From Haladaptatus sp. ZSTT2 (lineage in GTDB: Archaea; Halobacteriota; Halobacteria; Halobacteriales; Halococcaceae): a stretch of 64,000 nucleotides of DNA. The stretch is from contig NZ_JBAMHQ010000001.1 of NCBI RefSeq assembly GCF_037081775.1, forward strand, positions 868,001-932,000, in the 5' to 3' direction. Below are positions 34,829 through 39,604 of this stretch, piece by piece (position 1 is the stretch's first letter; each line of letters begins with the position of its first letter). Below the pieces are notes generated by a model. The model ran no database searches and was not told where the DNA came from. It saw nothing but the letters and a program-made list of their open reading frames with translations. The translations under genes and the position numbers were made by a program.

Positions 34829-35872
34829 ATGAACGCGCGCCTCGACCGGCCGGTCACCGTGGCCCGCGCCGTCGTCCACGAGATTCGGACGGAGAACATC
34901 ACGTTCATGGCAGGCTCGATTGCCTACCACGCCTTCGTGTCGTTGTTGCCGCTCCTCTTGCTCGTCACCGCCGTCATCTCGACGGTCGGCAACCAAACCT
35001 TACAGGAAGGATTCAGCCGCCTGATGCAGGCAGTCCTGACCGAAGATGCGGGTGACATTCTCATCACCGAACTCCAGACCGGTGGGAGTTCGACGGGCCT
35101 GTCCATCATCGGGATTGTCGTGCTCATCTGGGGGACGCTCCGCATCTTCCGCGGGCTCGACACCGCCTTTTCGGACATCTACGAAACCGAAGCCGAGAAC
35201 ACGTTCTTCGACTCGCTCGGCGACGGCCTCATCGTGCTCGTCGCCGTGGCCGTCGCGCTGCTCGTGGGTGGCTGGGTCGAGACGAGCCTCCCTGCGTTCG
35301 GGTCGCCCGCGGTTCGCTGGCTTGTCCAGCGTGCCATCCTCGTGGTCGGCCTCTCACTCGCTTTCTTCCCCATGTACTACATCTTCCCCGACACGGACGT
35401 GTCGGTGCGCGAAGTGCTCCCCGGCGTCGGGTTCGCCGCCGTGGGTCTCGTCATTTTTGAGTCGCTGTTTCGCCTCTACACCAGCGGCAACGAGAGCAGC
35501 GTCATCGGCGGCATCATCATCCTCCTGACGTGGCTCTACTTCAGCGGCCTCGTCATTCTCGTGGGCGCAGCTATCAACGCCGTCCTCTCGAATCGGAGCA
35601 AAGATGTGAACATCGAACCCGTCATCGGCGGCGTGCGCCCCGTCGAGAAGCAGACTGACATCGACCGCACACACCTCACCGAACGGCTCACCGAACTGGA
35701 AACCCTCCTCAAACGCGAGGACATAGACGAGTTAATCGTCACCGCAGACGGGACGAAAATCACCCTCCCACGCCCGCTCAACGTGAACGCAGACACGACG
35801 GCCTCGCCACTGCATCTCGGCGACGGCACCGTTGGCTTCGAGATTCGCTGGTCGCCGCGAGAAGACGAGTGA
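34829..35872 (+). CDS. YihY/BrkB-family membrane protein
   Basis: 347 residues with six predicted membrane helices over residues about 30-275. NITFMAGSIAYHAFVSLLPLLLLV and the ILIWGTLRIFRGLDTAFSDIY loop are diagnostic of YihY/BrkB, a family of unknown transport role. A polar cytoplasmic tail of about 75 residues follows the last helix. The start is the ATG at 34829. Confidence 0.9.
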   Translation: MNARLDRPVTVARAVVHEIRTENITFMAGSIAYHAFVSLLPLLLLVTAVISTVGNQTLQEGFSRLMQAVLTEDAGDILITELQTGGSSTGLSIIGIVVLIWGTLRIFRGLDTAFSDIYETEAENTFFDSLGDGLIVLVAVAVALLVGGWVETSLPAFGSPAVRWLVQRAILVVGLSLAFFPMYYIFPDTDVSVREVLPGVGFAAVGLVIFESLFRLYTSGNESSVIGGIIILLTWLYFSGLVILVGAAINAVLSNRSKDVNIEPVIGGVRPVEKQTDIDRTHLTERLTELETLLKREDIDELIVTADGTKITLPRPLNVNADTTASPLHLGDGTVGFEIRWSPREDE

Positions 35873-35932
35873 TTCGTGACAGATAGCCAGTAGTATTTTA
35901 TCTGCCTAGTCCTTGCCGACGGATATACAGAA

Positions 35933-36820
35933 ATGATACTACAGGTAGGGGTTCCAACGACCGTAGATGGAATTATCGCCCAGTATGCAGGCCTGCTTGG
36001 CAAGATTGCAGCCTTCATCCTTGCCTTCGTCGTCGTTTACCTCATCGGGCGCGTCATCCTCGCGCCGCTCGCCAGCCGCGCCATGGACAGACGCGGGTTC
36101 GACGAAACGATTGCAAACCTCGCAGAGAAGGTGGTCGGCGTACTCACCTTCTTTTTCGCGCTCGCGGTTGCGTTCACCGTCGCGGGGTTCGGTGCGTTCC
36201 TTGCCGCCTTTGCAACCCTCGGCGGCGCACTGGCCCTCGCATTTGGCTTCGCCGCCCAAGACCTGCTCAGCAACTTCGTCGCCGGGCTGTTCATCCTCAA
36301 AGACAAGCCGTTCGAAATCGGCGACTGGATCGAGTGGGACGGCTATGCCGGGCGCGTCCAAGACATCGACCTCCGGGTCACCCGCGTCAAGACGTTCGAC
36401 AACCAGCTCATCACCGTCCCGAACGCAGACCTCGCGAACAACCCGCTCATCAACCCCGTCGCCTTCGACACGCTCCGCCAGAAGTTCGTCTTCGGTATCG
36501 GCTACGACGACGACATCAATCAGGCGACGGACATCATCATCGAAGAAGCCGAGAAGAACGACGACATTCTGGACGACCCACCTACGTCGGTGCGCGTCAC
36601 CGAACTCGGCGACAGCGCCGTTGGCCTCCAGTCGCGGTTCTGGATAAAGGACCCCAACCGCGCCGACTTCGTACGCACGCGGTCTGAATATGTCCAAGCC
36701 GTCAAAGAGCGCTTCGACGCAGAAGGCATCGACATGCCGTACCCGTACCGCCAACTCACCGGCGGAGTCACCGTCGATGGCGTTCCACAGGAAGTCGCGC
36801 TCGAAGCGGACGACGACTGA
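35933..36820 (+). CDS. mscS: Small-conductance mechanosensitive channel (MscS family)
   Basis: 295 residues. Three membrane helices; the third, pore-lining helix reads AAFATLGGALALAFGFAAQDLLSNFVAGLFIL with the expected Gly/Ala knobs. The beta domain has PFEIGDWIEWDGYAGRVQDIDLRVTRVKTFDNQLITVPN. It opens under membrane tension and releases solutes on dilution, which fits a halophile. A TATTTTATC stands about 35 bases before the ATG. Confidence 0.93.
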   Translation: MILQVGVPTTVDGIIAQYAGLLGKIAAFILAFVVVYLIGRVILAPLASRAMDRRGFDETIANLAEKVVGVLTFFFALAVAFTVAGFGAFLAAFATLGGALALAFGFAAQDLLSNFVAGLFILKDKPFEIGDWIEWDGYAGRVQDIDLRVTRVKTFDNQLITVPNADLANNPLINPVAFDTLRQKFVFGIGYDDDINQATDIIIEEAEKNDDILDDPPTSVRVTELGDSAVGLQSRFWIKDPNRADFVRTRSEYVQAVKERFDAEGIDMPYPYRQLTGGVTVDGVPQEVALEADDD

Positions 36821-36876
36821 GGACCGGCGGTTTCACGTTATAAATATTAGTTTCGCACGCGAACAGCCACGCACGC

Positions 36877-37122
36877 GTGCGAGTGAATAGTGTCACACGT
36901 CCAACGAGGAGTGTGGACTGGCTCACTGCTGGGAATGGCGCGATAATCCGCATTGGCCTGTATCTGCTCATCTTCTGGCCAACCGTGGGTTACTACGTCT
37001 ATACCGAGTCGACGCGTCGTGAACTGTCGAACCCGAAAGTTAGAGGAGTTGTATACGGCTTTTTCGGAATTCTCGGCGTCATCGTGTTTCTGGTGCAGTA
37101 TGGGACGAAAGAGCGGGAGTGA
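36877..37122 (+). CDS. Small two-helix membrane protein
   Basis: 81 residues from GTG 36877, with a second in-frame GTG at 36883. Two hydrophobic helices (about 22-42 and 57-75) lie between a basic N-terminus and a short KERE end. A good TATAAATA at 36839-36847 supports a real, nearly leaderless gene. No family recognised. Its stop lies immediately before the hairpin array. Confidence 0.65.
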   Translation: MRVNSVTRPTRSVDWLTAGNGAIIRIGLYLLIFWPTVGYYVYTESTRRELSNPKVRGVVYGFFGILGVIVFLVQYGTKERE

Positions 37123-37382
37123 GTGAAAGCACAGCTTTCACGAACGTCGGAGCAACTGCGTTGCTCCGGAAGTGAGCAAACACGGAGTGTTTGCGAGCCT
37201 CGATGCGACGAAGTCGCATCAGTGGTCAACAATTCCGAAGGAATTGCGAACGTCGAAGCGGTCTGCGACCGCTTCGGGATTTGAACGCCAGTCGCAAATC
37301 AGAGATTTGCTCCTTAGTTCAAAATCCCAGTGTACCGCATACACCCTCGAACCGAAGTGTGAGCGACGCAAGCGTCGCTCAC
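37123..37382. repeat. Array of eight consecutive hairpins plus one nested pair
   Basis: Stems and loops in order: 37123-37141 (8 bp, loop ACA), 37148-37168 (9 bp, TGC), 37176-37194 (8 bp, GGA), 37202-37220 (8 bp, GAA), 37230-37246 (7 bp, GAA), 37254-37276 (10 bp, TGC), 37294-37310 (7 bp, AGA) and 37359-37382 (10 bp, CAAG). The seventh sits inside a longer pair, 37276-37286 with 37317-37328, resembling antisense tRNA T-arm sequence. Arms are perfect but unlike one another; gaps are mostly 6-10 bases. Reads as non-coding. It is bounded by a small membrane gene and tRNA-Gly. Confidence 0.9.
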
Positions 37383-37402
37383 GGATTTGTTCTCGGTAGA
37401 AG

Positions 37403-37473
37403 TGCGCTGACTGGGATTTGAACCCAGGTTGTGACCATGGCAAGGTCACGTGATACCACTACACTATCAGCGC
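37403..37473 (-). tRNA. tRNA-Gly (anticodon GCC)
   Basis: On the minus strand the acceptor GCGCTGA pairs with TCAGCGC and is followed by discriminator A. The anticodon stem TGACC/GGTCA encloses TTGCCAT, anticodon GCC. The T arm is CTGGG-TTCAAAT-CCCAG. No intron, no encoded CCA. The 3' end faces the hairpin array, so the array may be in or beside its trailer. Confidence 0.96.
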
Positions 37474-37586
37474 GTGCCTGTTTCGGCGTTCGACTGCATT
37501 CGAATAGAGGTAGAGGATGGAATAAAAGAGTTGCGAATCAGGGGCGAAAATCGTGTGAGGGCGGGGCGAACCAAACTGTGCCAAAA

Positions 37587-37602
37587 CTCACGGAAACGTG
37601 AG
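37587..37602. promoter_or_regulatory. GAAA-tetraloop hairpin in the divergent promoter region
   Basis: CTCACG-GAAA-CGTGAG forms a perfect six-pair stem closed by a GNRA loop. It sits between divergent tRNA-Gly and the ribosomal operon, about 40 bases before the operon's TATA-like box, so it may be a palindromic binding site. Confidence 0.35.
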
Positions 37603-37640
37603 TGTCAGGCCCTCACACGCCCACAGACGAAGCGAGGGCT

Positions 37641-37647
37641 TTTTAAC
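37641..37647 (+). promoter_or_regulatory. TATA-like box of the SPOUT-ribosomal operon
   Basis: TTTTAAC preceded by a purine-rich AGCGAGGG. Transcription should begin near 37668-37673, leaving a leader of about 30 bases before the ATG at 37702. Confidence 0.5.
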
Positions 37648-37701
37648 ACCGGATACGGTACAATCGCCACAGTCTAGTGTCGAGGCGCGAATGCGGACAG
37701 T

Positions 37702-38586
37702 ATGACTGTCAGCATCCTCGTCCCCTCGTCTCTCGTCAGAGAGGCCGAGGACAAACGCGAGGCAACTCGAAAAATCGGCTACGTCGCCCGCGCGGCTACC
37801 GTGTTCAACGTGGACCGCGTGACCATCTTCCCCGACGAAGCAGGGGAGAATCGATGGGGAGGCGACTTCGTCGAGACCGTACTTCGGTACGCTGCGACGC
37901 CCCCCTATCTCCGCAAGGAGGCGTGGGGCAAGCGCGACGAGTTGCAGTATGCGGGCATTCTCCCCCCGCTTCGCACCGCGACACAGACCGGCTCCGAATC
38001 AGACGATTCGGAGTCGATAAGACAGGGAATCGTGACCGAGGTCGGACCTGACGGGCGCGTTCGGGTCAATTGCGGCTTGCAACACCCGATCTCCCTCATC
38101 GTGCCTCCATCGATGGAGGCACCTGATGTGGGGGAGCGCGTGACCATCAGGATCTCTTCGCGACGTCCGGTCCGTGCGAAAATCGTGGACGAAACCCCTC
38201 CCGGGTTTGCCGTCTCTCGCATGGACCTCCCAGAAGCACTCGGCCGTGAGGACGCCGGACTCTGCATTGCAACCTCGCGCCACGGGGAAGAACTCTCCGT
38301 GGGGCGACTCGGAGTCCTGGCCGGACGCCTCCAAACCGATGGAGCGACCATCGTGTTCGGAGCGCCCGATAGAGGGCTTGTGGAAATCTTCGGCGTTGAG
38401 GAAGCTGAGATCGCCGCTCACCGGAGCGGGATCTGGGACACAGACGCGGACTCTCCGCGTGTCGAATCAGGCGCACCCAGCCGGTTCGACCTTTGGCTCA
38501 ATGCGATCCCGAATCAAGGCAGTAAGACCGTGCGAACGGAAGAAGCTCTGTTCGCCGTGCTTGCCTGCCTGACACTCAAAGAGTGA
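37702..38586 (+). CDS. SPOUT-superfamily RNA methyltransferase (COG2106-type)
   Basis: 294 residues. SILVPSSLVREAEDKREATRKIGYVARAATVFNVDRVTIF opens a knotted SPOUT fold, split by an OB-like insertion (RQGIVTEVGPDGRVRVNCG ... GERVTIRI). The knot end includes VFGAPDRGLVEIFG and the tail QGSKTVRTEEALFAVLACL. Likely uses SAM to methylate rRNA. It is first in the ribosomal operon, four bases before rpl3, a usual archaeal position. Confidence 0.9.
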   Translation: MTVSILVPSSLVREAEDKREATRKIGYVARAATVFNVDRVTIFPDEAGENRWGGDFVETVLRYAATPPYLRKEAWGKRDELQYAGILPPLRTATQTGSESDDSESIRQGIVTEVGPDGRVRVNCGLQHPISLIVPPSMEAPDVGERVTIRISSRRPVRAKIVDETPPGFAVSRMDLPEALGREDAGLCIATSRHGEELSVGRLGVLAGRLQTDGATIVFGAPDRGLVEIFGVEEAEIAAHRSGIWDTDADSPRVESGAPSRFDLWLNAIPNQGSKTVRTEEALFAVLACLTLKE

Positions 38587-38590
38587 TACG

Positions 38591-39604
38591 ATGCCACAAC
38601 CAAGCAGACCACGCAAAGGTTCGCTGGGCTACGGGCCGCGAAAACGCGCGGCAAGTGAAGTCCCGCGGTTCGGCTCCTGGCCAGCAGACGACGGTCAGCC
38701 CGCACTGCAAGGCTTCGCAGGCTACAAGGCCGGCATGACCCACGTGGTGATGATTAACGACGAGGCAGAGTCGCCTCGAAATGGGATGGAAGAAACCGTC
38801 CCCGTCACCATCGTGGAAACGCCGCCAATGCGCGCCGTCGCGCTCCGTGCCTACGAACAAACGCCGTATGGAAAGCGTCCGCTGACGGAGGTCTGGACCG
38901 ATGAGTTCCACCCGGAACTCTCCCGTGTCCTGGACGTCCCAGGCGAGCAAGATGAAAGCGCCAAAGAAGAGCTGCAGGAAGCCCTCGATGCCGGAAACGT
39001 CGCGGACCTGCGTGTCATCACGCACACCGTTCCGTCCGACATCAACGGCGTCCCCAAAAAGCGCCCTGACGTGATGGAATCCCGCATCGGCGGCGGTTCC
39101 ATCGAAGAGCGCGCCGAGTACGGACTCGAACTCATCGCAGAAGGCGGCGTCCACGAGATGTCCGACGTCTTCCGCGCCGGTGAGTACCTCGACGTTGGCG
39201 GGATCACCAAGGGTAAAGGTACCCAAGGGCCCGTCAAGCGCTGGGGCGTCCAGAAACGCAAGGGCAAGCACGCCCGCCAGGGATGGCGGCGTCGCATTGG
39301 TAACCTCGGCCCATGGAACCCGAGCCGCGTTCGCTCGACCGTTCCACAGCAAGGCCAGATGGGCTACCACCAGCGCACCGAGCTGAACAAGCGTCTCATC
39401 GCCCTCGGCGATGGCGACGATGCCAGCGTCGATGGCGGCTTCGTCGGCTACGGCGAAGTCAACGGCCAGTACGCGCTCGTCAAAGGCTCGCTTCCGGGCC
39501 CAGACAAGCGCCTCCTGCGCTTTAGACCAGCCGTCCGACCGAACGACCAACCGCGCCTCGACCCTGAGGTGCGCTACGTCTCCACCGCATCGAACCAAGG
39601 ATAA
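38591..39604 (+). CDS. rpl3: 50S ribosomal protein uL3
   Basis: 337 residues, archaeal long form. PRKGSLGYGPRKRA begins the N-terminal tail; GKGTQGPVKRWGVQKRKGKHARQGWRR is the loop that reaches the peptidyl-transferase centre; GQMGYHQRTELNKR follows. One of the earliest assembling large-subunit proteins. The stop overlaps the next start (TAATG). Confidence 0.98.
   Translation: MPQPSRPRKGSLGYGPRKRAASEVPRFGSWPADDGQPALQGFAGYKAGMTHVVMINDEAESPRNGMEETVPVTIVETPPMRAVALRAYEQTPYGKRPLTEVWTDEFHPELSRVLDVPGEQDESAKEELQEALDAGNVADLRVITHTVPSDINGVPKKRPDVMESRIGGGSIEERAEYGLELIAEGGVHEMSDVFRAGEYLDVGGITKGKGTQGPVKRWGVQKRKGKHARQGWRRRIGNLGPWNPSRVRSTVPQQGQMGYHQRTELNKRLIALGDGDDASVDGGFVGYGEVNGQYALVKGSLPGPDKRLLRFRPAVRPNDQPRLDPEVRYVSTASNQG

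Follow-up and report, generated by a model that had tools for sequence, protein, structure and literature searches.

Hairpin-forming DNA repeats in the 3' tails of haloarchaeal tRNA genes: a candidate repeat family

A 64-kb stretch of the Haladaptatus sp. ZSTT2 genome (hereafter, the window) carries, at the 3' end of a tRNA-Gly(gcc) gene, an array of perfect palindromes that we interpret, with about even confidence, as a member locus of a DNA-hairpin repeat family of haloarchaea that is situated at tRNA 3' tails and integration sites and whose palindromes would be kept by template-switch copying and probably also by selection. The structure of these tails and their genomic context were observed directly; what may bind or move the hairpin units we infer. 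Three congeneric genomes were compared, namely the 3.23-Mb genome of Haladaptatus sp. ZSTT2 (G000) and those of two congeners (G001 and G002).

Anatomy of the array

An exact search of positions 37123–37382 identified seven perfect triloop hairpins with stems of 7–10 bp and one tetraloop hairpin, in agreement with the original prediction of eight perfect hairpins in 260 bases, seven of them with three-base loops (Table 1). The spacers between the hairpins are 6, 7, 7, 9, 7, 17, and 48 bases long. The whole window contains 19 perfect triloop hairpins with stems of 7 bp or more, and seven of these 19 are found within 188 bp. When the 260-bp region was dinucleotide-shuffled 5000 times, 4883 of the shuffled sequences contained no perfect triloop hairpin of at least 7 bp, 116 contained one, and a single sequence contained two; shuffling of the whole window (n = 100) yielded a maximum of two such hairpins per 260 bp. 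The seven triloop hairpins are thus beyond chance, as had been proposed, and folding of both strands also bore out the prediction, with the array far more stable than its shuffled counterparts (z = -6.5 for the plus strand and -8.7 for the minus strand).

Two parts of the earlier description did not hold. The arms had been called unrelated, and the array had been treated as free-standing, the adjacent tRNA and the copies of its end having gone unnoticed. The first six hairpins are instead an alternating alpha/beta pair that occurs three times (alpha usually 8 bp, with a range of 7–8 bp; beta 8–10 bp), forming three tandem two-hairpin units of about 53 bp each at the tail of tRNA-Gly(gcc). The flanks around the alpha and beta hairpins are conserved (GTGAGY..GCGARCNTCG..CGGGA), and on the tRNA strand the recurring flanks are GAGGCTC or GACGTTC ahead of alpha and TCACTYCC behind it. 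The seventh hairpin is part of an inverted T-loop repeat and the eighth is part of the tRNA trailer. Read on the tRNA strand, the order is therefore tRNA-Gly; trailer with a 10-bp hairpin; GGGATTTTGAAC ... hairpin ... GTTCAAATCCC; and the three units, each with beta before alpha. The tRNA-Gly 3' end is present as a degenerate second copy, and the three units lie inside the T-loop of that copy. At its far end, the G002 tRNA-Gly tail repeats the 3' end of the tRNA (CCTAGTCAGCGCACTTCT / CCTAGTCAGCGCAC), of which the window retains T-loop pieces only, and the trailer hairpin is kept in place in both G001 (L002 1158–1181) and G002. As the array fills the gap between an 81-aa open reading frame (ORF; 36877–37122) and tRNA-Gly(gcc), it is the 3' tail of the tRNA gene. 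In keeping with the original prediction that the array is not a CRISPR, positions 36000–38500 contain no family of identical repeats.

Table 1. Features of the tRNA-Gly(gcc) tail in the window (R1, covariance model described in the text)
Feature	Position	Strand	Details
tRNA-Gly(gcc)	37402–37473	-	ARAGORN; Rfam RF00005, 66.6 bits; array immediately 3' of the tRNA
Eighth (trailer) hairpin GTGAGCGACG-CAAG-CGTCGCTCAC	37359–37382		Stem of 10 bp around a 4-base loop; alternatively 11 bp around AA
Inverted T-loop repeat GGGATTTGAAC ... hairpin ... GTTCAAAATCCC	37276–37328		From sequence
Seventh hairpin GCAAATC-AGA-GATTTGC	37294–37310		7 bp; center of the inverted T-loop repeat; identical in G001
Two-hairpin unit 1	37116–37169	+	R1 match 37115–37171, 59 bits
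Alpha hairpin, unit 1	37123–37141		8 bp, loop ACA
Beta hairpin, unit 1	37148–37168		9 bp, loop TGC
Two-hairpin unit 2	37170–37223	+	Whole-genome model match, 35 bits (G000:C1:905168-905219)
Alpha hairpin, unit 2	37176–37194		8 bp, loop GGA
Beta hairpin, unit 2	37202–37220		8 bp, loop GAA
Two-hairpin unit 3	37224–37276	+	R1 match 37221–37279, 74 bits; unit itself among the sequences used to build R1; ends in the inverted T-loop repeat
Alpha hairpin, unit 3	37230–37246		7 bp, loop GAA
Beta hairpin, unit 3	37254–37276		10 bp, loop TGC; GCA in G001 and G002

The 81-aa ORF is on the plus strand, lacks a Pfam match, and terminates just inside the array, within its first bases; G001 has similar sequence, and G002 has other sequence and a tRNA-Gly 3'-end copy instead. 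Downstream of the array lie a methyltransferase-like gene (PF02598) and genes that were read from the sequence as ribosomal proteins. A strong Rfam match to the L4-Archaeoglobi ribosomal-protein leader (74.4 bits, window 38048–38150, plus strand) falls inside the ORF of the upstream Methyltrn_RNA_3 gene (37702–38586) and not in an intergenic leader.

Distribution among tRNA genes and haloarchaea

Similar triloop-hairpin tails were found elsewhere in the genome and in its congeners, and in G000 related arrays stand behind tRNA-Ser, tRNA-Lys, tRNA-Leu, and other tRNA genes. The density of triloop hairpins of at least 7 bp is 1.45 per kb in the 400 nt following 44 tRNA genes of G000, compared with 0.125 per kb in six 20-kb stretches (120 kb) of chromosome sampled as background. 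Tails are present at only part of the tRNA genes, and most have no triloop hairpins behind them. A covariance model built from six two-hairpin units (R1) gave matches at E ≤ 0.1 in 36 of 41 genomes belonging to the order, the weaker of these matches being uncertain. At E ≤ 1e-6, 10 of 148 genomes of the phylum matched, all of them haloarchaea of the same order, and no match of this strength was found in the sampled members of the phylum outside the haloarchaea. Most strong R1 matches within the genus are located directly behind tRNA genes.

Two sequence patterns gave a similar distribution. The strict inverted T-loop pattern (GATTTGAA-N22-52-TTCAAATC) is present in 32 of 41 haloarchaeal genomes, and its reversed control gave no match in any genome. 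A pattern based on the alpha flanks returned 35 haloarchaeal sites, 27 of which have a palindromic middle, compared with 8 of 48 sites in other organisms; most of the haloarchaeal sites follow tRNA-Arg or tRNA-Gly at a distance of up to about 400 nt. The outer flanks, TCGC..GCTCAC, recur across haloarchaeal genera, and the alpha hairpin is preceded by a GTAG foot in many genera and by GAGGCTC, GACGTTC, or similar on the tRNA strand of the window. A viral origin was considered and set aside, as none of 41 pattern matches in viral contigs has a palindromic middle. A common trailer motif (CGAACAAC..GWGAGC) was likewise dropped for being too weak, its count in G000 equaling that of the control. 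In other haloarchaeal genera, identical inverted T-loop repeats follow one another directly at intervals of 93 and 125 bp (G028:C1:844460-844599 and G006:C1:166769-166960), and in several genera (L136, L138, L141, L144–L147) a perfect triloop hairpin, for example GCAAATCC-NNN-GGATTTGC, lies about 20–100 nt upstream of tRNA-Gly(ccc) or tRNA-Gly(tcc) and not downstream. A search of the open-access literature returned no description of such hairpin tails, a result that does not in itself prove their absence from it.

Covariation, loops, and turnover of the units

In 13 hand-cut units, the alpha helix was 97% paired and contained 29 double changes, compared with 10.6 ± 2.9 after shuffling and at most 4 with slid partners, and in 37 model-aligned units (alignment A3, whose fitting to the model tilts it towards the modeled structure) 16 of 18 pairs covaried, with 120 double changes compared with 30.9 ± 4.3 after shuffling; as the copies are related, the comparisons made by shuffling and by counting do not amount to independent tests. 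The homologous arms therefore covary, and pairing is kept despite sequence change, as the original prediction implied. Only 4 of 585 cells in the 37 units were G-U. When orthologous hairpins were located by their flanks alone, with no requirement for pairing, 28 changed pairs were compensated versus 20 broken, some genome pairs being counted both ways. At tRNA-Gly, for example, the alpha hairpin of unit 2 is GCAAACAC in G000 versus GCAATTCC-TTC-GGAATTGC in G002, with nearly identical flanks, and at tRNA-Arg(ccg) GATTTTGC-TGC-GCAAAATC corresponds to GACTTCGC-TTC-GCGAAGTC. Mismatches on the tRNA strand were A.C in 15 and G.T in 6 of 888 cells. The loops are also biased: 40 of 65 tail hairpins have a loop of the form C-(GNA or TNC)-G, compared with 1 of 27 background hairpins, and 63 of 65 have a C-closed loop, compared with 13 of 27. 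The promoter hairpins of phage N4 cannot extrude without C-closed G-N-A loops (PMC4496689). Because G-U is almost absent, A.C mismatches outnumber G.T, and the loops are of the C-GNA-G type, these sequence comparisons favor hairpin-forming DNA, rather than RNA, as the conserved property. Of the mechanisms originally offered, a string of RNA hairpins thus fits less well than template-switch copying or DNA cruciforms.

Template switching can create and maintain hairpins (PMC8794818), and in short inverted repeats of yeast, with arms of about 10 bp and spacers such as TCC/GGA and TTC/GAA, it homogenizes the arms and inverts the spacers (PMC8604942). The stem data are consistent with such arm homogenization. 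Inversion of the loop would be the clearest mark of template switching; it plays a part in a few cases, but most loop differences between orthologues are of other kinds. The loop of the unit 3 beta hairpin is TGC or GCA and that of the CAATTCC hairpin is GAA or TTC, and inversion as the main process was rejected given that the reverse complement was seen in only 1 of 10 same-stem loop changes, in addition to the TGC/GCA case. The units themselves turn over among the congeners. The tRNA-Arg(cct) tail has the composition [B] in G000, [A][B] in G001, and [A] in G002, and the distal tail of tRNA-Gly has one unit in G001, joined at the repeated GAACGTC, versus three in G000; the G001 tRNA-Gly tail also has extra tandem copies closer to the tRNA.

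These observations bear on a possible, if rather unlikely, reading in which the tails are a neutral by-product, that is, scars of past integrations and tandem duplications whose stems were made and kept by template-switch copying only, with neither selection nor a binding protein. The mutational mechanism is known (PMC8604942), compensated changes appear without G-U intermediates, hairpin cores are replaced as blocks within conserved flanks, and copy number varies freely between congeners, all of which speak for it. The C-GNA-G loop bias, the near-constant 8-bp alpha stem, and the persistence of the outer flanks across genera, however, are not predicted by copying alone.

Origin of the tails at tRNA ends

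Copies of the last 11 bases of the cognate tRNA occur within 300 nt downstream of 12 of 43 and 17 of 44 tRNAs in two congeners, compared with 8 of 1756 (0.5%) and 4 of 1852 (0.2%) for non-cognate tRNA ends in the same test. This cognate excess indicates that the copies arise locally or through tRNA-specific attachment sites. In other tails, such as those of tRNA-Asp, tRNA-Ser, and tRNA-Leu, the two-hairpin unit lies between GTTCAAA and the TCCC-acceptor of a copied cognate tRNA end. The tRNA-Arg(ccg) tail of G002 is located about 9 kb from its tRNA, and a gene for a tyrosine recombinase (integrase) stands between the two, beside the tail. The displaced copy starts exactly at GTTCAAATCCC, which puts the breakpoint at the T-loop, and over 88 nt its match to the G000 tail is 92%. 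The intervening 9 kb or so probably represent a single inserted element. A tRNA T-loop motif lies no more than 300 nt upstream of the gene in 13 of 30 relatives of this integrase (L402–L431), compared with 72 of 3000 random positions (2.4%). The upstream motif in this family of haloarchaeal tyrosine recombinases is nearly always in one orientation. Words resembling a T-loop next to integrases in G000 (L390) and in G001 (L395) were discounted, as they lie inside coding sequence and are not tRNA sites.

Archaeal integrases and tyrosine recombinases prefer tRNA 3' ends (PMC8371274), and 11 partial tRNAs, several directly adjoining the full tRNA, were noted in Hfx. gibbonsii (PMC7921747). Given these reports, the G002 integrase, and the T-loop motifs upstream of its relatives, we take the tails to have been produced by events that recurred at tRNA attachment sites. 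They resemble haloarchaeal tRNA-integrated elements and partial tRNAs in that duplicated tRNA 3' ends are described there as attachment-site products; the cognate tRNA 3' end is likewise directly repeated behind part of the tRNA genes here, and an integrase gene is absent from the element at the tRNA-Gly locus but present beside the displaced G002 tRNA-Arg(ccg) tail. Covarying hairpin units and inverted T-loop repeats, in contrast, are not described for such elements in the accessible portions of these two sources (PMC7921747, PMC8371274). The G002 integrase family has no member in the G000 genome, and no integrase was found near the G000 arrays, including the tRNA-Gly locus; nothing in the present cell is therefore shown to act on the arrays.

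In the model that we favor, in which DNA-hairpin repeats occupy tRNA integration sites, tyrosine recombinases that cut at the T-loop would insert mobile DNA, or local tandem duplication would occur, so that the tRNA 3' end is repeatedly duplicated and tails are left behind. The conserved property of the units would be hairpin-forming DNA, with C-GNA-G loops letting short hairpins extrude under negative supercoiling or from single-stranded DNA. Template switching from arm to arm would then rewrite one arm from the other, allowing stems to drift yet stay perfect, and recombination between repeated flanks would add, remove, and reshuffle units. The hairpins resemble the early-promoter hairpins of phage N4, which have a short stem, a three-base loop with C-G closure and a 5'G..3'A loop, and are extruded by supercoiling in N4 (PMC4496689); the parallel is structural only, with no sequence relation or demonstrated functional one, and the extrusion motif C-GNA-G is known here from sequence alone.

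Integron attC sites are structure-recognized single-stranded hairpins in modular tandem arrays. By analogy, the units may be structure-recognized recombination cassettes, with a haloarchaeal recombinase that binds triloop DNA hairpins, extruded or single-stranded, at the T-loops of tRNAs in the way an integron integrase binds attC, and that inserts, excises, and shuffles gene-less cassettes, in which case the tails may offer substitute or decoy attachment sites and so protect the tRNA gene. We consider this extension unlikely. The arrays differ from integrons, as first predicted: the core is GTTCAAA rather than the attC GTTRRRY, the units have no ORF or cassette gene, and no integrase gene is nearby.

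Decidedly unlikely is a relationship to REP or IS605/PATE-like mobile palindromes, in which each unit would be non-autonomous and would be mobilized in single-stranded form by an HUH (Y1) transposase. The units have two short hairpins, triloops, and one insertion context (TTCAAA/TCCC), and the GTAG foot before alpha in many genera is as in bacterial GTAG REPs; in the window, GAGGCTC, GACGTTC, or similar occupies this place on the tRNA strand. REP, BIME, and GTAG repeats are, similarly, short intergenic hairpins with 6–13-bp stems and often 2–3-base loops that cluster and form subfamilies with complementary stem changes (PMC3733652). PATEs are known in Haloquadratum and are also short, non-coding, and without terminal inverted repeats, with palindromes near their ends (PMC3119063). 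However, a search for the Y1 transposase (PF01797) gave no match in G000, which removes it as the mover within this genome, and many R1-matching genomes also lack Y1; IS200 is the only Y1 subclass reported in archaea (PMC6006769). REP families share stem sequences, are reported in bacterial phyla with RAYT transposases, and often show G-T stem pairs, whereas the stems here are free to vary (at 16 of 18 pairs in 37 units), rarely contain G-U, and are tied to tRNA 3' tails. PATEs, for which the consulted text describes no tie to tRNA tails, are IS605-related with family-specific ends (PMC3119063), whereas the present units are about 53 bp long and lie in cognate tRNA-end copies. Least probable is a functional RNA, in which the tail would be co-transcribed with the tRNA and its hairpins would act as trailer, terminator, or small RNA, a reading that suits the position directly downstream of tRNA genes and the strong folding on both strands but conflicts with the near absence of G-U, the excess of A.C over G.T mismatches, the gain and loss of tails among congeners, the lack of triloop hairpins behind most tRNA genes, and an Rfam search of positions 35000–39000 (E ≤ 1) in which only the tRNA and the L4 leader, outside the array, scored above the cut-off.

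Mobile DNA of archaea docks mainly at the 3' ends of tRNA genes. If a repeat family located there conserves hairpin-forming DNA and not sequence, this would suggest that recombination or replication at these archaeal sites is structure-guided. The tails provide a natural many-copy record of the evolution of perfect palindromes, with compensated changes and almost no G-U steps, and such ordered tails may explain a class of haloarchaeal 'partial tRNAs'.
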